Virus record (IMG/VR): IMGVR_UViG_3300042885_000668
Location: 1 to 21,886 of that record
DNA length: 21,886 nt
Reading direction: 5' to 3' (one strand)
Source: a virus
The translations under genes and the position numbers were made by a program. Positions 1-15,834 of the stretch are shown one piece after another (positions within the stretch are counted from its first letter, which is position 1; each line of letters opens with the position of its first letter). The notes beneath the pieces are model-generated. The model saw only the letters and a program-made list of their open reading frames with translations, was not told the origin of the DNA and did not search any database.

Positions 1-3000
1 ACATCGTAACCCTCTTCCTTAAGGGTCTCGATAGGGCCTTCCATCGTGTTGTTGATCGCGATGAAAGGCTTTTCATTGCCCTTGAGAGTTCGGATCGCAT
101 TGTCAGCGATCGCCTTGGCTTTAAGCGAAAGAATGTACTGGGTCGAAAGGTTAAATAGATGACTTCCGAAATTCGTGGATGAAACGCTTACTTTTGATTC
201 CGATGCACGGGTTTGATTTTCCACGTTCTCCATCTTCTTCGCGACCTTTGAGACCTTCTTACTGAAGCGCAGAATCTGCTGAAGAAAGTCCGTGTACACG
301 TCAGCAAGCTCGCGCTCGCGCTCTGCGTTGTCGGTAGAGGTAACGAAATCAAACGGCACTCCGCCCCAGTTCTGCTCACGGCGCACGAACTCTCCGGATT
401 CGGAGAGCATCGAAGTAAGCGCCTGCTGAAGCGCCAAGCCGCCGCTGTCGAGCAGTTCGGTCATTTCAGCTGGGCGCAATCCAGCACGCTGCATCAAAGT
501 TTTGAGCGCGTAGAGACCGAGGTTATCCGGACGCTTAGCGAACGTCGCAGATGCGAAGTACGCACCTTTTGACTTGGGAAGAATCTGATCGAATCGAATG
601 TTCGTGTCGGAATTTGCGCCGGCCGCTAGGTGAGCCTCGTCCAACACGAAGATTGCGTTTGGAGCAATACGAGATAGCGCCTCCCAGATGGGACCAAACG
701 ATTTGGCAATTCGCTTAGATTGACGGGCCCGCTTCTGTTTGGCGCCTTCCTTGAATCCAGGAGGAACATCCGATTTTAGCTGATCGTAGGTCGTGAAAAA
801 TGCGTTGGTTCCCTGAGGAAGTTCAGCCGTGTCGTTGATCTTTGCCAATTCCTCACGACTCTTAGCGGATGTTCTTCGCACCTTCACGGTCTCACCAGTG
901 GATGCGAGGTAATCGACGTTGCTGTTCGTGACATAAGGCCGAATACCATTCTCACCGATCGCCGGAAGATCTCGACCAGCCATGTCAGAGTACAGGGTTG
1001 GCTTGGCGGTGATGAAAACCGGAGTCAGTCCGTTCAGGCGTGCATACCGCAAAATGGCAGCAACGGTGCGCCCCTTGCCCACACCAGTTTGGTCTGAGTT
1101 GATCAGCGCCGAACCGCGTTCAATGTTCCGAATTGCCAAACCAGTAGCGTCAATCTGGGCGGCGGACATTATCTTAAACAACTGGTCCTTGGTCATCTGC
1201 AACCGATTAGCGACGTAGTTGTCGATCGGCATCTTGACCTCGGCCTCCAATTCGCGGAGGGCTCGCTCAGTGGCGTCAGCGATGTTTGAGGGGCTGACGA
1301 GTCCGGTTTCAGCGTTTTTGCTCTGGCTCTTGTAGGGCTTAGTACGCGCCTCAGACATAGCCTCCGGCTCTGACTCGATTTCGGGATCGACCGCAATCTC
1401 AGGCTCGGTGGGCACCGTGGTTTGGTCGATCGCATCAATGACGCCGGTTGCCTGGGTTCGATTGAGATCATCCAATCCCTCGACGGTATTGGCGGTCTCC
1501 TGCCAAATGGATAGAAGCGACCGCTTGAGCTTATCCCAGATTTCAGGGAGATCAGCACGCACTTGCGAAGCGAACTCGGCAAACGTGCGGATGCCGGCCT
1601 TGACGTACAAGGAAGCCATCTTGACGCCGATTACTAGAATCTCGGGGTCCACGCCCATGGCGGTGCCCCCTAGCTTGTCGCGCAGCTGCTTCTTTAATGC
1701 CTCCAGTTGCGTTTGCTCATCCGTAGATAGCTTCGATGTTAACCCGGGCCTTGCGGCAGGCGGCTTAACCACAGGTTCAATCCGTCCTCCTGCCACGCCT
1801 CCAGCTGCTCCTGGTTCTTTGACTCTGGGCGCTGGCTCAACCACTGGTCCAGTTGCCGCCGGTTCACTTGGAGTAGGAGTTCGTTGTTCTGGAGCACTTG
1901 GTACAACTGCTCCGGGTCCAGGAACAGGCTGCTCGACAGGAACAGGTTCTGGCCGCTTTCCTTGAGATAAGAGTTCAGGACTCGCAGGCGCTCCTGGAAC
2001 GCCTCCGGGTTGTCCTGCACCTCCTTCAACTGTCGGCTCCACAGCTGGGACATTTCCCATGCTAGTTGCTGCTGGGACGACAGGGGTTGTGACTTTCGAT
2101 TTGCGAGCTTCATTGATCAGCGGTTTGAGTTGTGCCCAGTTGTTGTAAACGCGAGGTGCTGAAACCCACGGACGGACCAAACCTCCTTGGGCGGATGGAG
2201 AGGTTGATCGTTTTCCGTCGATTACCACAATATCGACCGGCCATCCTGCCCCCATCTTGGAGTACATACTGCCGTCGATGGTGAAGAAGTCGGTAACATT
2301 AAACCGATTGAACAGGTCAAGGTACTCAGCCCGTTCGTAGGATTTCAGCCGGTTTTCTGGAGTTCCCAGCTTGTTGGACTGCGATCCAGTCTTGGATCCC
2401 AAGATCAGCACGGCCTTTCCGTTGGGGGCCATGGCTTCGAGCGTGTTCAGCGCAATAGCGAGGTCGATGCTCGAAGTATCCGCCCGCTTGATACTGCTTC
2501 GGAAGAGCGGGAACGATTCCTTATAACCTTCAAGGAATCGAGCGCCAAACGGAGGGTTGATAATGACGCGATCCGGTTGAGCAGAATCCAACAAGTCAAA
2601 GAACTCCTTGCTGACGGCATCAAGTCCGGTGGCAGGTTTTCCAATAAAGCGTTCCAGACGCGTGCGGCGGTTGGGATCCAACTCGTTAGCAAGAATCTCC
2701 TGCTTAGTCGGATCTGACGTGACAAGCAGCATTCCATTGCCGGCGGTCGTTTCGGCAATGCGTTGACCACTCTCTATGTCAGCAAGGATGCCGGCCAGAT
2801 AAGCAAGCGGAGGCGGCGTGGAATAGGCTTGCGCGGTTTTACTGGACGCAGTTCGAGTACGCAGATCCGGCCCTTGTTCGTACCGCTGAGTCAGCTTGTC
2901 GTAGGTCTCAGTCGGATCTACTCCAGCAGACCGATCTTCACGCACAGTCTGTGCGGTAGCTTGAATGATCTGCGATTCAAGTTCCTCTTCGACTTCTTTC

Positions 3001-4346
3001 TTGTTCGGTTCAACCAGTATTGGGCCGGGAACAGGTGTTGGTTTGGCAGGAGGAAGCACGGACGCCGCTAGAGAGATTTCCTCCGGAGGACGGATTAGCT
3101 CTTCTGGTACGATCGGCGCTTTGGGTGTAGGCTCTACCGGCGGCGCAATAGCCTCTTCAACAGCGGCAGGAATCGTGGGTTCCGGCTGGATTGAAATCGG
3201 TCCAGAGGGCGGCCCGCCTGCATTGATCCCGCCAAGCTCTTCGGCAATGTCGGGAGTGAGCGCATCCTCTATGCCAGATACGGTGGCAGCAGAATTCGGA
3301 AGAGGGTTTGCGGGATCATCACCAATGGCTGCACGGCTGGCAGCCTCACGATCAATGAATCCAGGAATGCCATCAACCACCGCACCTCTTCCAAGGCGCT
3401 CCTGCTGCAAGCTACGAAGCCTCTGTCCACGCGAAATCTTGCCAGCTCCACCGGCAACGAGTCCGACCAGTGTTCCGACGCCCGCACCAACCTCTCCGGA
3501 CTCAAGGATTCCTTGGCCTAGTTTCTGGTCAGGGTTGTAGATTTTCTGAGCGGCCAGATTCTGAAGGAACTGTTCCGACGATTCCTGTGCTGCTTCTTCA
3601 AGGCCAGTTTTGAAAGCGCCACGAACAACCCTTTTTCCAATAGCGCCAGTTACCAGACGCTTTACTGCTGGAACAGCACCTAACGCGCTTTCGGTGATCG
3701 CACCAATCGGTGCTGTAGCCATGAGCACCTTACGCTGTGCCTGTGGCTTTTCAGCGCGAAGCCGACTGGCTTCCATCGCGTCTCCTTTTGCCAACGCCTC
3801 CGCAATCTTGGTGTCGTAGAATTGACCTGCCTCTTGCGCGGCATCTTCACCAGAACTAAGGCCGTATGCCAGCTGTCCAACGCCGGGTATCGCTGCAACC
3901 GGAAGCGATCCAACGCCGCTTGCCAACTGGGTAAGATAATCTTCTTCCCGCAACGGATTGACCGGGAACGCTTCCGCCGCTCCTGCTTGAAGGTTCTGAC
4001 CCAGCTTAAACGTCGGATCATTTTCAGTTCTCGCTTGGAGAACTTCAGGTGAAACTTCCCTAGTGCGTTGCTGCCATGCTTCGAGCCTACGGTTGTAAGC
4101 TTCCATTCCAGCGGGGCTTTCTGCTTGCGCCGCTGTCATCATCGGAGGCGGCTCTTCTGACGCTAAACGCGCAAGGCCCATCATGCTTCCACCAACCATG
4201 CGACCGCCTTCCCGCATGAAGGCTGATCCAGCGGAAGAAAGCGCACCTTGATCTAAGGTATCGACAAATTCTTGAAGTTCATTTTCACCAACATCATCAG
4301 GAACCTCGATTAGACCGATGTCTTGAATATCAATGAGCTTAGGCAT
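1..4346 (-). CDS. Giant polyvalent protein: N6-adenine methyltransferase plus Strawberry-notch-type DEAH helicase (C-terminus outside window)
   Basis: An uninterrupted minus-strand frame runs from ATG at 4346 to the window edge, giving 1448 residues without an end. Residues about 225-300 are Ala/Gly-rich with a hydrophobic stretch, a pattern seen in phage proteins ejected into the host. A Pro-rich linker covers about 345-450. A class I methyltransferase follows: STPPPLA near 511, SAM loop TAGNGM at 534-539, catalytic NPPF at 597-600. A second Pro-rich linker spans about 745-870, then a helical segment 870-950. The helicase starts near 1030 with Walker A region QTGVGKGRT (1086-1094), DEAH at 1236-1239, then an ASATFAKR motif. 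This order of domains is that of polyvalent anti-restriction proteins (P1 DarB type, AAA_34/Strawberry-notch helicase). It starts 3 bases after the stop of a putative ejection protein, which fits packaging in the virion and protection of incoming DNA; that role is inference. The call is very sure for the domains, moderate for the role. Confidence 0.88.
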   Translation of the reverse strand, partial: MPKLIDIQDIGLIEVPDDVGENELQEFVDTLDQGALSSAGSAFMREGGRMVGGSMMGLARLASEEPPPMMTAAQAESPAGMEAYNRRLEAWQQRTREVSPEVLQARTENDPTFKLGQNLQAGAAEAFPVNPLREEDYLTQLASGVGSLPVAAIPGVGQLAYGLSSGEDAAQEAGQFYDTKIAEALAKGDAMEASRLRAEKPQAQRKVLMATAPIGAITESALGAVPAVKRLVTGAIGKRVVRGAFKTGLEEAAQESSEQFLQNLAAQKIYNPDQKLGQGILESGEVGAGVGTLVGLVAGGAGKISRGQRLRSLQQERLGRGAVVDGIPGFIDREAASRAAIGDDPANPLPNSAATVSGIEDALTPDIAEELGGINAGGPPSGPISIQPEPTIPAAVEEAIAPPVEPTPKAPIVPEELIRPPEEISLAASVLPPAKPTPVPGPILVEPNKKEVEEELESQIIQATAQTVREDRSAGVDPTETYDKLTQRYEQGPDLRTRTASSKTAQAYSTPPPLAYLAGILADIESGQRIAETTAGNGMLLVTSDPTKQEILANELDPNRRTRLERFIGKPATGLDAVSKEFFDLLDSAQPDRVIINPPFGARFLEGYKESFPLFRSSIKRADTSSIDLAIALNTLEAMAPNGKAVLILGSKTGSQSNKLGTPENRLKSYERAEYLDLFNRFNVTDFFTIDGSMYSKMGAGWPVDIVVIDGKRSTSPSAQGGLVRPWVSAPRVYNNWAQLKPLINEARKSKVTTPVVPAATSMGNVPAVEPTVEGGAGQPGGVPGAPASPELLSQGKRPEPVPVEQPVPGPGAVVPSAPEQRTPTPSEPAATGPVVEPAPRVKEPGAAGGVAGGRIEPVVKPPAARPGLTSKLSTDEQTQLEALKKQLRDKLGGTAMGVDPEILVIGVKMASLYVKAGIRTFAEFASQVRADLPEIWDKLKRSLLSIWQETANTVEGLDDLNRTQATGVIDAIDQTTVPTEPEIAVDPEIESEPEAMSEARTKPYKSQSKNAETGLVSPSNIADATERALRELEAEVKMPIDNYVANRLQMTKDQLFKIMSAAQIDATGLAIRNIERGSALINSDQTGVGKGRTVAAILRYARLNGLTPVFITAKPTLYSDMAGRDLPAIGENGIRPYVTNSNVDYLASTGETVKVRRTSAKSREELAKINDTAELPQGTNAFFTTYDQLKSDVPPGFKEGAKQKRARQSKRIAKSFGPIWEALSRIAPNAIFVLDEAHLAAGANSDTNIRFDQILPKSKGAYFASATFAKRPDNLGLYALKTLMQRAGLRPAEMTELLDSGGLALQQALTSMLSESGEFVRREQNWGGVPFDFVTSTDNAERERELADVYTDFLQQILRFSKKVSKVAKKMENVENQTRASESKVSVSSTNFGSHLFNLSTQYILSLKAKAIADNAIRTLKGNEKPFIAINNTMEGPIETLKEEGYD

Positions 4347-5298: not shown

Positions 5299-6051
5299 TT
5301 AGATCGTTTTCGGCATGATGCTCTGTTGCATTGCAACATTGCTGCTTCCAGCGCCTGCCCCGCCACCAAATCCGCCTTGTCCTAACGCACCAAATCCAAG
5401 GTTGGTCAATCCAGATCCTAGCGATCCAAGGTACTGGCCACCAACCCCGCCCGCGCTTGGCATATTATAAGTCCCAAGCAAAGCGGCTTGTTTTTTGGCG
5501 CGTTCATCAGCCCTCAAGTTTGCAATCATCTGAGGCGTAAACTCATAGTTTGCCATCTGCGCCATCGGAGTGGTGCCTATAATGTTGGAAAACTGTTGAG
5601 CTCCAGCCTGCTGGAGATCCATTGATGTCCTACCTAGGTCCCGCGCCGTTAGGTTGCGAGCCGCCTGGCTTCCAGCGTATCCTCCAGTTAGAGCCTTTGA
5701 GGCGGTATTGCGTTGAATTTGGGCAGCAAGGTCAGGCGGCAACTCTCCACGAAGCAACGACATCGCGTTCTGGGTGCGCTGAGCTTGGCCCTCCTGATAG
5801 CCGGGAATCTGGATGCCGAGGGATTCAAGAAGCTGCGCCCGGTTGAAGGCGTTTCGTTGTGCTTCAAGTTCTCTGGTTTGAGGTGCCAGTTTCCCTGACT
5901 CTCCAATCAACTCTCCAAGGTCTAGGCCAGGCAAATTTGCCGCGCCGCGAGCGCCAGCGCGATCTTTGCTAGCTTGGTTGGCAGAAACTGCTGCGCCAGC
6001 CGCGCCAGCAACAACGCCGGTTGTGATAACTGCCGATGCTACGAATGACAT
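5299..6051 (-). CDS. Putative ejection/internal virion protein, Gly/Ala-rich with hydrophobic N-terminus
   Basis: This encodes 250 residues from ATG at 6051, overlapping the end of the cupin-like gene by 13 bases. Residues about 4-26 form a hydrophobic Ala/Gly/Val segment (VITTGVVAGAAGAAV) that could insert in a membrane. The middle is Gln/Ala/Arg-rich and probably helical (QRNAFNRAQLLESLG; QAARNLTARDLG). The last 50 residues are strongly Gly-rich. Podophage ejection proteins of the gp14 type are short, have a hydrophobic N-terminal segment, and are encoded after the tail tube genes, as here. I see no catalytic motif and no lytic transglycosylase signature. The function is therefore inferred from composition and gene order. 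Confidence 0.72.
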   Translation of the reverse strand: MSFVASAVITTGVVAGAAGAAVSANQASKDRAGARGAANLPGLDLGELIGESGKLAPQTRELEAQRNAFNRAQLLESLGIQIPGYQEGQAQRTQNAMSLLRGELPPDLAAQIQRNTASKALTGGYAGSQAARNLTARDLGRTSMDLQQAGAQQFSNIIGTTPMAQMANYEFTPQMIANLRADERAKKQAALLGTYNMPSAGGVGGQYLGSLGSGLTNLGFGALGQGGFGGGAGAGSSNVAMQQSIMPKTI

Positions 6052-6503
6052 AGTAAGTATTGGTTTTGACCCACGTAAGTGAGGTCGTTCAAAAGCTCTT
6101 CGTGATCCGTCTTGTTATCCAGATTCAGGTGAACCGTGGTCCAAATGGTGTCCTCATGGATCAGCAGCACGCGGCGAGTTCCTGGCTTGGTGATGCCCGA
6201 ATACGGCGCCGTGTAGGTCACCATACCCTCGTTCTCGCTAACCACCGTGACCCTGCCTTTGGTGATGAAGAACGGATTGTCGAACTTATGGATGCGGCTG
6301 GTGACGACACATCCAGCCGGCATGAAGATTTCACGCACGTACATCCCCTCTGGGAACGTGTGTTTTAGCGGACACTCCTGCTGCGGAATATTCGCCACAA
6401 ACGCTTCCCACCTGTCCAGACGATCGTCGAACGTGACGGTCTCATCCGTCAGGATGTCGAGCCACGTAACAGGTTGAACGGCTACTGGAAGCTCCTCAGT
6501 CAT
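6039..6503 (-). CDS. Small cupin-like beta-barrel protein of the tail operon
   Basis: This encodes 154 residues from ATG at 6503. The start overlaps the stop of the adaptor-like gene as ATGA, a common sign of coupled translation. Residues about 55-127 show the alternating beta strands of a small jelly-roll or cupin: REIFMPAGCVVTSRIHKF, then a turn ITKGRVTVV, then RRVLLIHEDTIWTTVH. H72, H116 and H125 are possible metal or ligand contacts, but the canonical cupin HxH...E motif is not clear, so a purely structural barrel is also possible. It sits inside the tail/ejection operon, which suggests a virion or assembly role rather than metabolism. I recognise the fold pattern but not a named family. 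Confidence 0.75.
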   Translation of the reverse strand: MTEELPVAVQPVTWLDILTDETVTFDDRLDRWEAFVANIPQQECPLKHTFPEGMYVREIFMPAGCVVTSRIHKFDNPFFITKGRVTVVSENEGMVTYTAPYSGITKPGTRRVLLIHEDTIWTTVHLNLDNKTDHEELLNDLTYVGQNQYLLCHS

Positions 6504-8572: not shown

Positions 8573-11500
8573 CTAGATGCGGTAAAGGTAGTCGTTTGGC
8601 TTACACGGGCCTGGGTCGCATTCAAGCGCCAAACAGCCCTCGGGACAATCGAAATAGAAGAACTGCTCAAGAGGCGCAACGCAGCGTGTTGGGCGCCCTG
8701 TGAGAAATGCGTTACCGAACTGACCTCCGTTATTGCGTACCAACCCTTGTCCGCTGAGCCTTCGGACGCTGTTGCATCCAATCTGGATGTTATCGACGTA
8801 CCGGAAGAAGTTTCCGATCGAGGAGGTAAACGCTACGTCTGGCCCAGGACTCGCGCAGGTAAACGTTGTGGTCGTCGGGGTTCCGGTTACGATCACCTGG
8901 TCGTTGAACGAAGCGTTACTAAGCCCTTCAACGGTCACGTGGTATCCAAGGAGTATTTGGTGCGCCTTGTTCGTCGTGTACGTGGCCACTCCAGCGGTGC
9001 GCTGGAATCCGATGGGTTTGATTTCCCATGGGAAGTTGATCGGGCTGTTGATGCCGAGGAATCCGCTTCCTGACGTAACTGGCGTATTTGGAAGCGGACC
9101 CACCGGGTTGTTAACCGTAAACTGCGTGGTCGAAGGTGTTGAAAGGACGGTAAACACGCCGTTAAACGTGCCGTCCGTCACACTAACCATCGAAATTTCC
9201 ATTCCCACCTGAAGTTCATGCGGGGAGACCGTGGTGAACGTCGATATACCAGCTGCGTCTCTTGACGCCCCTGTCGGAAATGGGGCCGGCGGAGCCAGTG
9301 GCCTAATCGGTATCTGGTAGTCCGTCGGATAGTACCAAGTGGACTTGTTGACATCGTGGTTGTTGACCAGGAAAACAGCGTCCAGCGGGGTGTATGCTGT
9401 CTGGTAGAACCATGATCCTGGCCCTGTCAGGAGAACATCGTTGTTCTCGATCAACATATCCTTGTGCCCCGAAATCAAGGTTGAGTAGGTCTCAGGGTTA
9501 GTGACGCTGGGCACCCCTGAAATCAATGTAAACCAATCCTGCACAACCAAGGCGATAAACGCTGATATGTTCAGCGCCGAGTTGTGATGGATGTGGGTTC
9601 CCTTGTGCTGGTAGGAATCGACGTAGAAGCAGGTGCCACGGAACCCGTCGAAATTGTTGTAGCTGATATCGGCGCCGTTAGTTTCACGAACGGTGATAGC
9701 AGTAACCGGACTCTGCTGGTCAACTGGATTAGGGCCACCCTGAACCCGGTTGTATTTGAACTCGCATCCTGTAGCAAAGATGCGCTGGCTTCGGAGCATG
9801 ATTACCTGGCCGTCGAGGTAAAGGCCGGGGAGTATGTTTGGGCCAGGTGCGGAAACAGTGAATCGGTTGTCATCCAGTAATGAAATCACCGTCGATTTTG
9901 CGTAGACAGGTGGTTTGTAAAACACGCTGCCAACGACTGTAGCGGGCACGTTCGGGAGAACTTGAGCAACGGTGAAGTTAAAATCGTCGATAATCGACGC
10001 GACAACCCATGTTCCGTTAAACGAAGAATCAAATGTGATGCCACTGATTATAACCTGGTCTCCCGTGTTGACGAAGTGTATTCCAGCTGTGGTGTATGTC
10101 GCAATGCTAGCATTCCGTTGGACTACTGAGGCGTATGTCATCGTCACCGGGACCACATCCCCAACCCGCAACGTGTGTTTCATCACGCAGGTGTATGTCG
10201 CAACTCCACCAACGCGAGAAACCACATTGATCGGGTTAATAAGACTTGAAAACCCGCCAACCACACACTGAGTGTTCGACTCTGCGCTACCGGGGTACAG
10301 GGTGCTTTGAATCGAGTTGCGTCCTTGGTAGCTGAAATCGTTGTTTAGAACCCTTGCTCCCTGAGTGTTGTCAGAAACATTCATCGGAAGAAACGACTTC
10401 GCGATAAACGTCTCGGCATCCGCAATTCCAACTCCAAAATCGTAGAACTGGTTGTTCTGAATGAGCGCGTTCTCGCCGACGTGGTTGATTCCAGCGACGG
10501 TGAATAACGAGTTTACACCAGCTTTGGTTTGCGGTGTAAGAGCTACATTTGGATAAGCCCAAGCGCGGGCGTTTTCGTTTACCAAAGTGTAAACGTATCC
10601 AACACTAGGAGTGGATCCAATATTTGTTCCTACATTAACGCAAGTAAACTGAGTTGGGCTCGGTGGAGCCAATGTTACAAACGTACCGTTAAAAGACGCA
10701 TTTGAAAGACCCTCAATAAGAACAGTTTCACCGCCTACAAAGCCATGTGGAGTTGCAGTATCATATATAGCAACGTTTGTGTTTCGCTCGAATCCGTTAA
10801 TTTGAGTTGCTGTAGTAGGCGCTGCATTTAGGCAGAATACCTCTTCAGTTGAAAGAAATCCGGCAACTACAAAAGTGCCATTGAAAGCCGCACTTGCAAA
10901 TCCTGTGACATTTATTGAATCTCCGATTGTAAATCCAAAATTCCACTGCGGATGTTTAGTGTAGATAGCATAGCCAAACGGATTTATTCTTGCACGTAAA
11001 AGCACCACCCTTAGGTCGCGTTGAAAAGAAAATGATGTTATGTTTGTAATGCTTCCAAATCCTACAAATGAAAGATCGTTTCCTGTGCCTGCTGTGATTA
11101 CATTACTTATGTATTGCGAAATTGCGCTAATGTTAGTGTATGGCGCAGGTGAAATAGGGGGGCTGTAGGCCGGAGGGGCAACTGCGTAAAATTGAGTGTT
11201 AGGTAAATTCGGTTCGTACAACGGTTGCAATACGTTGTAAGTATTTATACCATTTGTCCTTTGAACAGAAACTATCTTTATATCGGCCACCGAATTATTG
11301 GCGTAGTTTCCGTCGAAAGTAATTCCTTCAATTATCGTGTTCTTGCAGTTGATGCTATCCAGAGGCGCGCCTGCGTAAGCGCCAGGTGCCCCAACAACTC
11401 CAAACCCTGTGTAATTTCCAAGGGTCTTCAGCATCTGAATGTTGAATCCAAAAGTGTCCCCTCTTTTCGTGGAAGTGTTATCGGCAAACTTCAGGATGGT

Positions 11501-11977
11501 CTTGCCGACGCCCTGGCCTGTGAATGCGACGTTGTTGATTACGCCTGTGAATGGTGGGTAACCCATCACAAGTGACGAAGTGTAGCCGCCGCCAATTAGG
11601 TTGATCCAACCGTCTTGGGTGACCAGGGGTGCATCAGGTCCAGGAACCGCTGCTGTAAATTGCGTCGGAGTAGGTATGCTGAGAACCGCGAATCCAAACT
11701 GTAACGGCCCGGTGCCGTTGAAGGTGATGTCCGTAAACCCGTACAAGGTGATCTTCTCGCCGACAACGAGCCCGTGCGGTGTGGACGTGTTGAACGTCGC
11801 AACGCCTGCGGTGCGGACACGGTCGATGATCTTCGCCCCAGGACTCGATCCAAGCAGGAATGTCCCCACTGGAAAATCGCAGCGCAGCGCAGCGAATAGG
11901 CATTCATTGATCGCCCACGCGCTGTTTCTCAGTCCACAGGGATCGGCGCCGTAATCGACTGGGTTTGAAGAAGGCAT
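8573..11977 (-). CDS. Tailspike with parallel beta-helix and about seven inserted repeat modules
   Basis: This encodes 1134 residues from ATG at 11977, 1 base after the nozzle stop. An in-frame extension to 12049 would overlap the nozzle gene, so I reject it. The N-terminus (VDYGADPCGLRNSAWAIN, residues 7-24) is the entry motif of pectate-lyase-like beta-helix spikes. Beta-helix rungs are seen as IIEGITFDGNYANN (215-228), ALIQNNQFYDFG (504-515), ARVLNNDFSYQGRNS (541-555), ISYNNFDGFRGTCFY (771-785) and MLIENNDVLL (841-850). Between them lie repeats of a 60-residue module near 52-117, 318-391, 395-455, 585-715 (nested pair), 904-966 and 990-1052. The C-terminus has four close cysteines (C1111, C1115, C1120, C1125). 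The fold implies binding to, and perhaps cleavage of, surface polysaccharide, but I cannot assign catalytic residues. Confidence 0.85.
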   Translation of the reverse strand: MPSSNPVDYGADPCGLRNSAWAINECLFAALRCDFPVGTFLLGSSPGAKIIDRVRTAGVATFNTSTPHGLVVGEKITLYGFTDITFNGTGPLQFGFAVLSIPTPTQFTAAVPGPDAPLVTQDGWINLIGGGYTSSLVMGYPPFTGVINNVAFTGQGVGKTILKFADNTSTKRGDTFGFNIQMLKTLGNYTGFGVVGAPGAYAGAPLDSINCKNTIIEGITFDGNYANNSVADIKIVSVQRTNGINTYNVLQPLYEPNLPNTQFYAVAPPAYSPPISPAPYTNISAISQYISNVITAGTGNDLSFVGFGSITNITSFSFQRDLRVVLLRARINPFGYAIYTKHPQWNFGFTIGDSINVTGFASAAFNGTFVVAGFLSTEEVFCLNAAPTTATQINGFERNTNVAIYDTATPHGFVGGETVLIEGLSNASFNGTFVTLAPPSPTQFTCVNVGTNIGSTPSVGYVYTLVNENARAWAYPNVALTPQTKAGVNSLFTVAGINHVGENALIQNNQFYDFGVGIADAETFIAKSFLPMNVSDNTQGARVLNNDFSYQGRNSIQSTLYPGSAESNTQCVVGGFSSLINPINVVSRVGGVATYTCVMKHTLRVGDVVPVTMTYASVVQRNASIATYTTAGIHFVNTGDQVIISGITFDSSFNGTWVVASIIDDFNFTVAQVLPNVPATVVGSVFYKPPVYAKSTVISLLDDNRFTVSAPGPNILPGLYLDGQVIMLRSQRIFATGCEFKYNRVQGGPNPVDQQSPVTAITVRETNGADISYNNFDGFRGTCFYVDSYQHKGTHIHHNSALNISAFIALVVQDWFTLISGVPSVTNPETYSTLISGHKDMLIENNDVLLTGPGSWFYQTAYTPLDAVFLVNNHDVNKSTWYYPTDYQIPIRPLAPPAPFPTGASRDAAGISTFTTVSPHELQVGMEISMVSVTDGTFNGVFTVLSTPSTTQFTVNNPVGPLPNTPVTSGSGFLGINSPINFPWEIKPIGFQRTAGVATYTTNKAHQILLGYHVTVEGLSNASFNDQVIVTGTPTTTTFTCASPGPDVAFTSSIGNFFRYVDNIQIGCNSVRRLSGQGLVRNNGGQFGNAFLTGRPTRCVAPLEQFFYFDCPEGCLALECDPGPCKPNDYLYRI
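8822..9010 (-). repeat. Tailspike repeat module 7 (residues 990-1052)
   Basis: Last copy, with segments FQRTAGVATYTTNKAHQ, VEGLSNASFNDQVIVTG and TTFTCASPGPD, just before the C-terminal tip. The FNDQ in place of FNGT is the main departure from the pattern. Confidence 0.8.
9080..9268 (-). repeat. Tailspike repeat module 6 (residues 904-966)
   Basis: Copy with segments AGISTFTTVSPHELQVG, DGTFNGVFTVLSTPSTTQF and TVNNPVG. It follows a Pro-rich link after the last beta-helix rungs. Confidence 0.8.
9833..10225 (-). repeat. Nested tailspike modules 4 and 5 (residues 585-715)
   Basis: The front half of one module (RVGGVATYTCVMKHTLRVGD, 10124-10225) stops after VTMTYAS. A complete second module follows at 9935-10123 (RNASIATYTTAGIHF, SSFNGTWVV, FNFTVAQVLP). 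The missing rear half of the first (STVISLLDDNRFTVSAPGPN) then appears at 9833-9934. This reads as one module inserted in another. Confidence 0.65.
10613..10795 (-). repeat. Tailspike repeat module 3 (residues 395-455)
   Basis: Copy with segments FERNTNVAIYDTATPHG, IEGLSNASFNGTF and SPTQFTCVNVG. The EGLSNASFN core is identical to that of module 7, about 590 residues away. Confidence 0.8.
10805..11026 (-). repeat. Tailspike repeat module 2, divergent (residues 318-391)
   Basis: A degenerate copy starts FQRDLRVVLLRARINP, lacks the usual VATYTT strand, and recovers at FTIGDSINVTGF and ASAAFNGTFVVAGF. It lies in the AT-rich middle of the gene and is followed directly by module 3. Confidence 0.6.
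11627..11824 (-). repeat. Tailspike repeat module 1 (residues 52-117)
   Basis: First copy of the module, between the beta-helix entry motif and the first rungs. Key segments are AGVATFNTSTPHGLVVG, then ITFNGTG, then TPTQFTAAVPGPDAP. It is longer than the others by several residues after FNGTG. Confidence 0.8.
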
Positions 11978-11978
11978 A

Positions 11979-14018
11979 CTATTCGGAGAGTAGCGGGCAG
12001 GCAACGCGGCTGAGATCGCCGTAGATATCCTCTTGGAGTCGCTGGGCAACCATCGCCACGCGCTTGAGCCGGAAGCGGCCGGTGTTCACGTAGCGCAACT
12101 GGAACTCGTAGCCATCACGAGTAAACCCTCCGGTCTGCACGTCACACTTGTCCGGAGGCTGCGGGAGGGCAATGCGCGATCTGGCTGGCGGCTGGTAGTA
12201 TTTGACCTCTTGGCAGTTAATCACCGCAGGAGGGCAGGAAATCTCGCCCGGCTCGCAGTTGCGGTACTTGGCGCAGTCTTTAATCTCGGCCCATGGTTGC
12301 CAGCACTCACCCTCGTTAGCCTTGAAGTAGACCTTGGCTTCGATATTGCCCATCACCTGGTCATACCACTGCTCGGCGCTAACAAGGCGCTTCTTGTTTG
12401 TGGGTTCACCAAATGTCAGTGAGCGGGTCTCAATGGTCCAGTCGATCGGTACATCATCGAACCCATCGAAGTCAAACTGGCCGTTCTTGGTGACCTCAAA
12501 GAGACCGATGTCCCCTTGATTCAGTCCAAACATGAAGCAGCGTTCTTGCTTCTGGATTCGGATCGTCAGCATCTGGAATACATCAACTCCAGTCCAGACC
12601 CCCTCCCATGCCGGCGGGAGTTTTCGGCCCATGCCCGAGACAAGATCAAAGTCCAGCACTACGACCCCTCGGTGTATGATACCTCGGTTGTTGACCTTCT
12701 GAGGCTGAATGGTCATTAGCAACCGATTGTCGAAGTTCACGGAGCTAGCAGCCGTCAGGTAAAAATCCGTGTCGTAAGCCAGCGCACGGGTCACCTGCCG
12801 GCTGATCGGAGTATTTCCAAACTCAGTGAAATCGCGCCTGGCATAGATCAACGAGCGAATACCGTCCTGAGCGCGGAAGAATAGATCACCGTTCACTGGC
12901 ACGATGGATTCGTGGTTGAACGATCCGAAGTTTAGAAGCGCGAATCGCTGGATTGGATAATTGAGATCCTTCCAAACATCCCGGTCCACAGGCGCGTTAA
13001 ACGCGTAAGTGGCGGTCGGGGTGAACACCAGCAGGTCGCCGTCGCCAAGGGACGTGTCCAGGTTGGCCGCGAATGCCAACCCTGTGATCGGGCCGCTTGA
13101 GACCGCAAAGGCGCCGCCTTCATTGATGAATGTGTTCTCGGTAAATCGAATCACGCTGTCCCGGCCGTAAGCAGGATCACCGTAGACCAAGTCTCCGCCG
13201 TAGTATTCCGAACCGCTGGCAACCCAAAGGCGTCCTTTTCCGTATGCCATCGGGCCGCCTGTTGGCACTTCTTCTCCAGTTGCTCGACGCAATGTGGAAC
13301 CGTCAAACAGATACGGTTGATTCTGAGTGTCTTGGACGATCATCCAATTCTCAGCCTGCTGAAAATAGACGTGTAAAATCTGAGGATTATTGGCCGCTAG
13401 CTGATAGGCATTGAATGTTGGGCCAAGCAACGGACCTGCGTCAACTCCCGGTGAGTACGTGGTAAATGTCGTTAGGCTTGGGGTAGTCTGAACCAGAAAA
13501 TCTCCGAAAAATCCCTGCGGAAAAGACGCACCTGGAGGTTCAGGAAGCCGTACCACCATGCCTGGTGATAATCCGTGAGGCGCTCCGCAAACGTAGGTGG
13601 CGACGTTAGAAACTCGACCGCGAGTTTGAATCTGAAACTGGAAATTTATTGGCGTTATGTCTGTAACGCTGAATCCGGCGTTGATGTCGATCTGGAAGAC
13701 TTTGCCTCCGATCGACACAAAAATGTAAGGGTCTTCGTTGTCGGCAGTGTAGGTTCCGCATCCCTGAAAAAACCCCTCTTTGAACGCCGATTGCACCGCA
13801 GCGTTGTAGTAGCCTCCGTTGTAGAGAACGGTTGGATCGGCAAACTTCAGCAGTTTGGTCCAAATCCCAGGCCGCGCTTTCGGGAATCCTCCGCGCACCG
13901 TCGTGTTCACCGCCCATGCTAGCTGGTTGGGTTGGATGAGTGAGGGCGAAAAACCGCTATCCACCCCACCTTCAGCGGTGAGGAGGCCATCTACTATGCG
14001 ATTTTTTTCTGCGACCAT
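11979..14018 (-). CDS. Tail nozzle protein (tail tubular protein B / gp12-like)
   Basis: This encodes 679 residues if ATG at 14018 (MVAEKNRIVDGLL) is used; a TTG at 14060 is in frame but adds a Cys-rich tail with no matching pattern. The N-terminal segment SGFSPSLIQPNQLAWAVN followed by RGGFPKARPG is typical of podophage nozzle proteins. Later segments agree: AYFxQAE-like VYFQQAENWMIVQD (218-230), PYLFDG, GKGRLWVASG (260-269) and YYGGDLVYGD, as expected of the beta-propeller-like tube tip. A 60-residue module found repeatedly in the next gene interrupts the sequence at about 132-194. Cysteines cluster at 572, 582, 588, 595, 602 and 625. It is the first gene of the minus operon, and its start overlaps the start of the terminase gene by 23 bases. 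Confidence 0.82.
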   Translation of the reverse strand: MVAEKNRIVDGLLTAEGGVDSGFSPSLIQPNQLAWAVNTTVRGGFPKARPGIWTKLLKFADPTVLYNGGYYNAAVQSAFKEGFFQGCGTYTADNEDPYIFVSIGGKVFQIDINAGFSVTDITPINFQFQIQTRGRVSNVATYVCGAPHGLSPGMVVRLPEPPGASFPQGFFGDFLVQTTPSLTTFTTYSPGVDAGPLLGPTFNAYQLAANNPQILHVYFQQAENWMIVQDTQNQPYLFDGSTLRRATGEEVPTGGPMAYGKGRLWVASGSEYYGGDLVYGDPAYGRDSVIRFTENTFINEGGAFAVSSGPITGLAFAANLDTSLGDGDLLVFTPTATYAFNAPVDRDVWKDLNYPIQRFALLNFGSFNHESIVPVNGDLFFRAQDGIRSLIYARRDFTEFGNTPISRQVTRALAYDTDFYLTAASSVNFDNRLLMTIQPQKVNNRGIIHRGVVVLDFDLVSGMGRKLPPAWEGVWTGVDVFQMLTIRIQKQERCFMFGLNQGDIGLFEVTKNGQFDFDGFDDVPIDWTIETRSLTFGEPTNKKRLVSAEQWYDQVMGNIEAKVYFKANEGECWQPWAEIKDCAKYRNCEPGEISCPPAVINCQEVKYYQPPARSRIALPQPPDKCDVQTGGFTRDGYEFQLRYVNTGRFRLKRVAMVAQRLQEDIYGDLSRVACPLLSE
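13437..13625 (-). repeat. Copy of the tailspike module inserted in the nozzle protein (residues 132-194)
   Basis: Segments RVSNVATYVCGAPHGLSPG, ASFPQGFFGDFLVQTTPSL and TTFTTYSPGVDAG align with the tailspike modules VATYTT..PHGL.VG, SFNGTF.V and TQFT...PGPD. It separates the strands FQIDINAGFSVTDI and LHVYFQQAENWM, which I would expect to lie close together in related nozzle proteins. Confidence 0.75.
13981..13986 (+). promoter_or_regulatory. Shine-Dalgarno AGGAGG that decides the terminase start
   Basis: AGGAGG lies 9 bases before ATG at 13996, and it is the only strong Shine-Dalgarno in the window. It favours that ATG over in-frame ATGs at 14017 and 14062. Because the same bases encode part of the nozzle protein on the other strand, it could be chance. 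Confidence 0.5.
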
Positions 14019-15834
14019 GACGCTTGAACGTATTGAAAGGCCGCAGCAGCATTCCCGCAAGATGAATGAAAGCGCAGATTACCTGTCTATACCGTGGCGT
14101 ACTAAAGACCGCTTTCTCATCGAAGCCGAAATGGTTCGTCGCGGCGGATACATAATGTCCGGTGGCGTCAAGTACGGATGTGGGAAATATCATCACTTCA
14201 AAGCAGCCATGACGGCGCTTTGGCCTCACTTCGATTGGCACATCTGGTCTGACCTGCTAATCAAGACTTTCGCGGAAAATCAAGAGGTTGGAATCATGGG
14301 CCCAGGATCATCTGGCAAGACCTACACCTCCGCAGCATTCGGGCTCTGCACGTTCTACATCTACCCCACCGGCACCTCGATCATCATGTCGTCAACGACG
14401 CGTGAGGGCCTCCAGCTGCGAATCTGGGGCTCGATCAAGGAGCTGCACAACAAGGCCAAGGCCCGCCGGGAATGGCTTCCTGGGCGCGTTATCGAGAGCC
14501 GGTTTATCCTGACCAGTTCTGACCAAGACGCCGAGGCGCAGGATTTCCGCGATGGAATCATCGGTGTAGCGTGCAAGGTTGGTGGTACGTTCGTTGGCCT
14601 CTCGAACTACGTCGGACTCAAGAACGACCGAGTGATGCTGATCGCAGACGAGGCGTCTCTAATGAGCCGGGGATTCCTCGATTCAGTCGCTAACCTTCGC
14701 AAGAATCCAGAGTTCAAGCTGATCGCGATGGGGAATCCCAAGGATCGCAACGACGCGCTTGGGGTAGTCTGTGAGCCGCACTCTACGATGGGCGGCTGGG
14801 AAGGCATTGAATACCTTGAGCAGACACGCACCTGGAGAACGCGGGCTCCAGGAGGGGTTGCTGTCCAGCTATGCGGGTACGACACGCCGAACGCGAAGTT
14901 TCCGAAAGGAACCAATCCGTACCGAGGCATCATCACGCCAGAGCAGATTCAGGCGGACTTGGATTACTACGGCCGAGACTCGTTGCAGTTCTCGATGATG
15001 AACCTCGGTTTGCTGCCCCGAGACGGCGGTACCCGACGCGTGGTAACCATGTCTCTGTGCGAGCAGAACCAAGCGTTCGATGAAATCGTGTGGCAGGGCG
15101 CCGACAAGATCACACGAATCATCGGGATCGACGCGGCGTACTCAGGCATCGGTGGTGACCGATGCGTTATGATCGACCTTCAGTACGGCCCGGACAGCAC
15201 TGGACGCATCGTGCTAGCATTCGCTGAGGCCCCGATCGTAATCCCTGTGACGGCCGTCAAAGCGCAGCAGGCAGAGGAGCAGATTGCCGAGTACGTGCTT
15301 CTCTACTGCAAGCAGCGCAACATCCCGCCTAATCAGGTGGGATTCGATTCCACCGGACGCGGCACGCTGATGTCTGCGTTCGCCCGCCTGTGGTCGCCCG
15401 AGGTGGTGCCGATCGAGTTTGGTGGCCGGCCGACGGATCGCCCTGTTCGGAAAGGTGATCCGAAGACTGAGCGGGAAGCCTACGGCAAGATGGTCACGGC
15501 CCTTTGGTATTCGTCGCGCCTGCTGATCGAATCCAAGCAGCTGAGGAAACTGCCTCGGGAAGTTGCTGAAGAAGGGTCTATGCGCGAATGGGGAATCTCC
15601 CGCACTGGTTTGATCGACGTGGAGCCCAAGCACAAAACCAAGGAACGCATGGGCCGATCCCCTGATTTATGGGACTCTTTCGTGGTCGCACTCGAAATGG
15701 CTCGCAGAACGGGATTTGAGATTGCAGGCGGGCAGGGGGTTGGTATTGTCAAGCGACAGACACCAAAGTGGCTGACACGTCTGTCAGATAAGCGTCGCAC
15801 GATGGATACTGAACATTCGCTAACCTATTCCTAA
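13996..15834 (+). CDS. terL: Terminase large subunit (DNA packaging ATPase and nuclease)
   Basis: The terminase motor pumps phage DNA into the prohead and cuts it. From ATG at 13996 the protein has 612 residues. Walker A is GPGSSGKT at 102-109, and Walker B is VMLIADEA at 213-220 with E219 catalytic. A coupling motif AMGNPKDR follows at 244-251. The C-terminal RNase-H-like nuclease shows acidic residues in IIGIDAAYSG (D379), VGFDSTGRG (D451) and SPDLWDSF (D557, D560). Starts further upstream (TTG at 13855) are open but run deep into the divergent nozzle gene. No separate small terminase subunit is visible next to it. It heads the plus-strand packaging/head operon, with SSB 4 bases downstream. 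Confidence 0.95.
   Translation: MRFFSATMTLERIERPQQHSRKMNESADYLSIPWRTKDRFLIEAEMVRRGGYIMSGGVKYGCGKYHHFKAAMTALWPHFDWHIWSDLLIKTFAENQEVGIMGPGSSGKTYTSAAFGLCTFYIYPTGTSIIMSSTTREGLQLRIWGSIKELHNKAKARREWLPGRVIESRFILTSSDQDAEAQDFRDGIIGVACKVGGTFVGLSNYVGLKNDRVMLIADEASLMSRGFLDSVANLRKNPEFKLIAMGNPKDRNDALGVVCEPHSTMGGWEGIEYLEQTRTWRTRAPGGVAVQLCGYDTPNAKFPKGTNPYRGIITPEQIQADLDYYGRDSLQFSMMNLGLLPRDGGTRRVVTMSLCEQNQAFDEIVWQGADKITRIIGIDAAYSGIGGDRCVMIDLQYGPDSTGRIVLAFAEAPIVIPVTAVKAQQAEEQIAEYVLLYCKQRNIPPNQVGFDSTGRGTLMSAFARLWSPEVVPIEFGGRPTDRPVRKGDPKTEREAYGKMVTALWYSSRLLIESKQLRKLPREVAEEGSMREWGISRTGLIDVEPKHKTKERMGRSPDLWDSFVVALEMARRTGFEIAGGQGVGIVKRQTPKWLTRLSDKRRTMDTEHSLTYS

Follow-up and report, generated by a model that had tools for sequence, protein, structure and literature searches.

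The window, i.e. the whole stretch of DNA analyzed here, is a virus record of 21,886 bases, which covers part of the genome of a tailed phage that has not been cultured. Its minus strand carries at 8573-11977 a gene for a protein of 1134 amino acids (ATG at 11977), predicted to form a β-helix with eight small β-barrel modules. On the basis of the β-helix model and the gene neighbors we infer that this protein is a tailspike. Elsewhere on the fragment a terminase match lies at 13855-15834, and positions 6039-6503 encode a protein resembling a short tail fibre. An open frame at 3-4346 (minus strand) extends over more than 1448 amino acids and matches AAA_34 (P-loop NTP hydrolase pore-1), with an additional sub-threshold match to N6 DNA methylase; its product is probably a large helicase/methylase protein. 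The spike gene adjoins an ORF of 693 amino acids (11979-14060) in which a module-like stretch, RVSNVATYVCGAPHGL..., was recognized by eye at 13431-13616 (minus strand), and homologs of this neighbor at many loci match the module profile at the corresponding place. The whole spike gave no match in Pfam, NCBIfam or the PDB, and no relative of it was found in the bacterial genome collection. In tblastn searches among 50,697 named phages no relative of the whole spike was detected at the sensitivity used, the module consensus had no match, and the nested segment described below gave weak matches to Microbacterium phages only. Relatives of the spike were found at 74 loci in the viral collection, and a wider scan of this collection returned further, more distant ones.

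The spike has eight modules of ca. 60 residues, which we call M1 to M8 and which were traced with an iteratively built module profile; all positions given are on the minus strand. Profile matches define M1 (residues 55-120, 11618-11815), M3 (332-393, 10799-10984), M4 (397-457, 10607-10789), M7 (907-967, 9077-9259) and M8 (992-1052, 8822-9004). M4 is a side-by-side copy that homologs may have once, twice or not at all, as seen at the corresponding place in L019, L036, L045 and L075. M2 is divergent (residues about 238-322, 11012-11266), and its halves were detected in the homologs L059, L060 and L069-L071. After its strand 2, in a loop other than the one interrupted in M5, M2 is extended by a Pro-rich stretch of at least about 25 residues, so that another loop of the module fold also takes insertions, though no module is found there. 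The remaining two modules are nested. The front half of the outer module M5 (residues 587-612, 10142-10219, hmm positions 1-26) is followed by a linker (613-619, 10121-10141) that lies within a continuous predicted strand of residues 608-622, by the complete inner module M6 (620-681, 9935-10120, hmm 1-61), by a second linker (682-695, 9893-9934) in which the predicted strand 690-700 begins, and by the rear half of M5 (696-716, 9830-9892, hmm 38-58). According to AlphaFold2 and Foldseek, the predicted host β-helix precedes this pair at residues 475-586 (10220-10555) and continues after it at residues 717-900 (9278-9829).

A second profile was built solely from modules of other slots, which avoids circularity. 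With this profile the inner module scored 46.8 bits, as a complete homolog of the outer module, and the front and rear halves of M5 scored 22.3 and 14.9 bits, the rear half being the weakest match of the pieces. Spliced together, the two halves were matched as a single domain across hmm positions 1-56 with 38.2 bits, and uninterrupted alleles of the M5 slot (L004 and L014) reached 61 bits. None of 2000 shuffles attained the score of the front half, and the same was found for the rear half, the inner module and the spliced outer module. A sequence-only reading of the window had proposed a split module copy around a complete second copy, and this is borne out by the profiles. Of the limits it assigned (585-618, 619-681 and 682-715), those of the front and inner parts agree within a few residues, whereas residues 613-619 and 682-695 are linkers. 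Judged from these sequence comparisons, we regard the nested segment as a genuine insertion of a domain into a member of its own family (A1-B-A2, where B is a homolog of A). In all spikes examined M5 is the only nested slot; M4 and one more module near the N-terminus account for the other changes in length, which are ordinary tandem additions. When other spike families were scanned for nested modules, the same family came up again and no other.

A first structure model of residues 540-770 was poor outside the modules and was superseded by an AlphaFold2 model of residues 475-900 (58 sequences, pTM 0.69). Over the nested part the pLDDT of this model mostly lies in the range 79-93 and falls to 54 at residues 675-684. 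The predicted strands are, in spike numbering, 578-589, 592-597, 608-622, 625-630, 641-644, 655-662, 667-671, 690-700, 705-709 and 715-731. In the 15-residue strand 608-622, strand 3 of the outer module is continuous with strand 1 of the inner module. These confidently predicted strands follow one another in the order that two barrels placed serially on the β-helix would give. In the arrangement suggested by the model, the module would be a five-stranded β-barrel that is itself a side loop of the β-helix tail spike; the inner barrel would be carried outward on the outer one, branching from the helix, and a long return strand would lead back from the inner to the outer barrel.

Foldseek searches with the 475-900 model returned GH110 galactosidases and β-helix tailspikes first, with LKA1 gp49, phi297 gp61, K1 lyase and GH110 at E 1e-5 to 3e-4 and low TM-scores, followed by the E1 FCCH domain and the K1F and phi92 endosialidases. 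For the smaller model (540-770), E1 FCCH and the endosialidases were the top matches. The hits to endosialidases and E1 FCCH have a high probability and an E-value of about 1e-3 with low TM-scores, most of the model being something else. A profile of 20 modules matched the endosialidases of phi92 (E 0.0012) and K1F (E 0.026) in the PDB. The best match to the endosialidase β-barrel family PF12195 was that of an L080-type module (E 9e-6, 26 bits, below the Pfam curated cut-off of 35 bits), and the inner module of the window gave no PF12195 match. Taken together, the module is best described as a remote relative, and no certified member, of the endosialidase β-barrel known from K1F and phi92. The likeness consists of a remote sequence match (HGL-x-VGD-x-V ... 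tV-x-s-v-x-x-x-x-FTV), a probably similar fold by Foldseek and the location of the barrel in a tail protein, a putative depolymerase in the case of the spike, whereas the spike differs by its β-helix host and its eight copies, one of them nested. The E1 FCCH domain (PF16190), for which Foldseek gives a fold match to the module and the profile a weak one, belongs to eukaryotic ubiquitin-activating enzymes and has no functional link to the spike.

Among spikes of uncultured viruses, 61 distinct full-length sequences were compared, and the M5 slot is filled with an inner module in 28 and empty in 33; counted by locus, with near-copies and one partial spike included, 39 are filled and 42 empty. 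The empty alleles, found in L004, L010, L014, L016 and others, hold a single uninterrupted module, for example VATYTCVMKHTLRVGDVVIVNSFSNPTFNGSLTVISTPDAFRFTANTGGPDVLPG. Homologs that lack the inner module had been anticipated from the sequence and do exist, and the segment is not a single unrelated domain. The literal joint expected for them, VTMTYAS running straight into STVISL, is absent; the empty alleles read GDVVIVNSFSNPTFNGSLTVIS. Filled and empty alleles form pairs in which the remainder of the spike is 97-99% identical: L053/L048 (L048 is partial), L019/L039, L028/L010, window/L004 and L054/L073. Between residues 151 and 600, each block of 30 residues is 100% identical in the window spike and L004, and from residue 721 on the identity is 93-100%. 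When filled and empty alleles are compared as DNA, the upstream flank is common up to the GDVV codons and the match resumes downstream at LPGLYLDG. The filled L012 and the empty L016 have almost the same DNA, letter for letter, in the outer rear half from ACTCCAGACGCATTC on, so that the two outer halves belong to a single module that has been interrupted. At the junction, filled alleles read GDVVPVTM (window, L054, L058) or GDVVSVTM (L035), and empty alleles have VIVNSF or VVVSGF at the corresponding place. The FNG motif is intact in empty alleles and worn to YAK, YVN or YFK in type A filled alleles. On a flank tree built from β-helix residues 470-584 and 722-895, the distribution of filled and empty states needs 13 changes, at least 8 of which are forced by well-supported branches. 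In the simplest reading, filled and empty versions have been swapped many times between close relatives by homologous recombination in the conserved flanks, at the GDVV codons upstream and the LPGLYLDG codons downstream.

Where the inner module came from was examined with module trees, which rest on 60 columns. In these trees the slots separate, and the inner modules join those that L075 and L079-L091 carry in the M5 slot, with SH-like support of 0.87-0.93 (88% SH-aLRT in another tree). The rear signature I-x-D-x-x-F-(T/S)-V-x-Q is common to both groups as well. The grouping and the signature favor descent of the inner module from the same-slot module of a divergent lineage like L075 and L079-L091, the incoming allele having landed within the resident module without replacing it. 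Against this stand the small number of columns, AU tests that did not reject placement of the inner modules with C1, C2, N1 or N2 (p 0.11-0.38) and rejected placement with N3 (p 0.003), and the front half of the divergent same-slot modules, which resembles the outer module more closely than the inner one. A certain same-slot source was given up after the AU tests. Such a source, which is compatible with the best explanation given below, is a serious candidate with chances that we put somewhat short of even. We propose with a little more reserve that an allele of the M5 slot itself became the inner module when recombination with a divergent spike lineage put it inside the resident, with empty and nested alleles now occurring on the same backbone; if so, growth by self-nesting would be a side effect of ordinary recombination between alleles. 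In the single module that L075 has in this slot, the front half is nearer to the outer modules and the rear half to the inner ones, and from its sequence this module may be either chimeric or near the ancestral form.

Rough estimates of dN/dS, with synonymous sites near saturation, are 0.07-0.10 for the inner module in both filler types, similar to the β-helix, and about 0.2 for the outer rear half, which evolves faster under the same reservation. As far as such rough values go, the inner module is kept under purifying selection. With respect to function, the K1F endosialidase binds polysialic acid at three sites, one of which is its barrel, and this barrel is also a hotspot for discriminating between hosts (PMC12632334); by analogy the nested pair probably changes or extends the sugar-contacting surface of the spike. 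The main rival to a sugar-contact role is a structural one, in which the barrels are spacers or subunit contacts that bind no sugar and their presence or absence is nearly neutral. Small barrels around the β-helix of GH110 enzymes contribute to dimerisation (PMC7939477), and the coexistence of filled and empty alleles in close relatives also suits a structural role. The repeated recombinational exchange, the purifying selection on the inner module and the sialic-acid-binding, host-discriminating site in the K1F barrel count against it, and we consider it reasonable though not the probable case.

The direction of change can be read from the rooting of the flank tree. The slot is empty in L075, in the outgroup L079-L091 and throughout the clade of L018, L020, L022-L025, L055 and L068. 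Since the outgroup spikes hold one module in the slot, we take the insertion to be the derived state. The junction residues V-x-V-T-M/I, common to both filler types and absent from empty alleles, suggest a single origin; resting on a few junction residues, one origin of the insertion is most likely. If the filled form were ancestral, the empty forms would be repeated deletions of the inner module, in keeping with the recurrence of empty alleles in many places on the tree and with change counts that do not tell gain from loss. Both the empty rooting group and the empty clade argue against this history, as does the FNG motif, which in empty alleles is as intact as in a never-interrupted module and is worn in type A filled alleles, and we consider it improbable. 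Less probable again, and already disfavored, is that the segment is what remains of three side-by-side modules, the first deprived of its rear and the third of its front, and only seems nested: side-by-side gain does occur in this gene (M4 and the further N-terminal module), but no homolog has two or three tandem modules at the slot, and the outgroups and many close relatives carry an uninterrupted module that matches the outer halves, in one pair almost letter-for-letter in DNA.

Beyond one 14-nt repeat and two weak imperfect repeats, no transposon-like ends or target-site duplication were found at the insert, and therefore no insertion mechanism is claimed. The 14-nt direct repeat is exact, lies at 10091-10104 and 10190-10203 (99 nt apart), and corresponds to the VATYT/IATYT strand codons shared by the inner and outer front halves. 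The explanation that we favor, and hold with considerable confidence as a whole, is a same-family insertion in the strand 3-4 loop that is derived, of single origin and later exchanged by recombination, with a probable role at the sugar-contacting surface. It would have begun with a single insertion of a module into the strand 3-4 loop of the outer module, and a later split would have produced the two filler types. The proposal made from sequence that modules insert into loops of existing modules and are tolerated there is upheld for this one site, where the loop is uninterrupted in close relatives and the insert is under purifying selection. As a recurrent process it is not supported, with one nested slot, a suggested single origin and tandem growth elsewhere.

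Domains nested within other domains are common, and repeated insertion of a domain into its own family is known from the HABAS domains of RNA polymerase (PMC11515920, PMC13114784). In the β′ Si3 region of that enzyme a small β domain is likewise inserted recursively within its own family (PMC11515920). The HABAS fold and protein are unrelated to the spike module, HABAS occurs in many copies with domain swapping, and the accessible text of that paper does not describe near-identical uninterrupted alleles coexisting with filled ones. Mosaicism of phage receptor-binding proteins similarly involves recent domain recombination in tail spikes of close relatives (PMC10684548); the survey counts swaps between different folds, and its accessible part makes no mention of nesting within one's own kind. 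A limited literature search found no report of same-family nesting in a phage spike. What we consider new and unusual is such nesting in a phage spike with empty and filled alleles coexisting on nearly identical backbones.

The steps that lead to discontinuous or recursively nested domains are usually ancient, whereas here the self-nesting step is visible in living populations. Because both states occur on backbones that are 97-99% identical, its cost, its structural consequences and its use are directly measurable. For the phages themselves, it shows a way by which spikes could gain a protruding barrel without a longer central helix, the gain being exchanged by recombination in conserved flanking codons.
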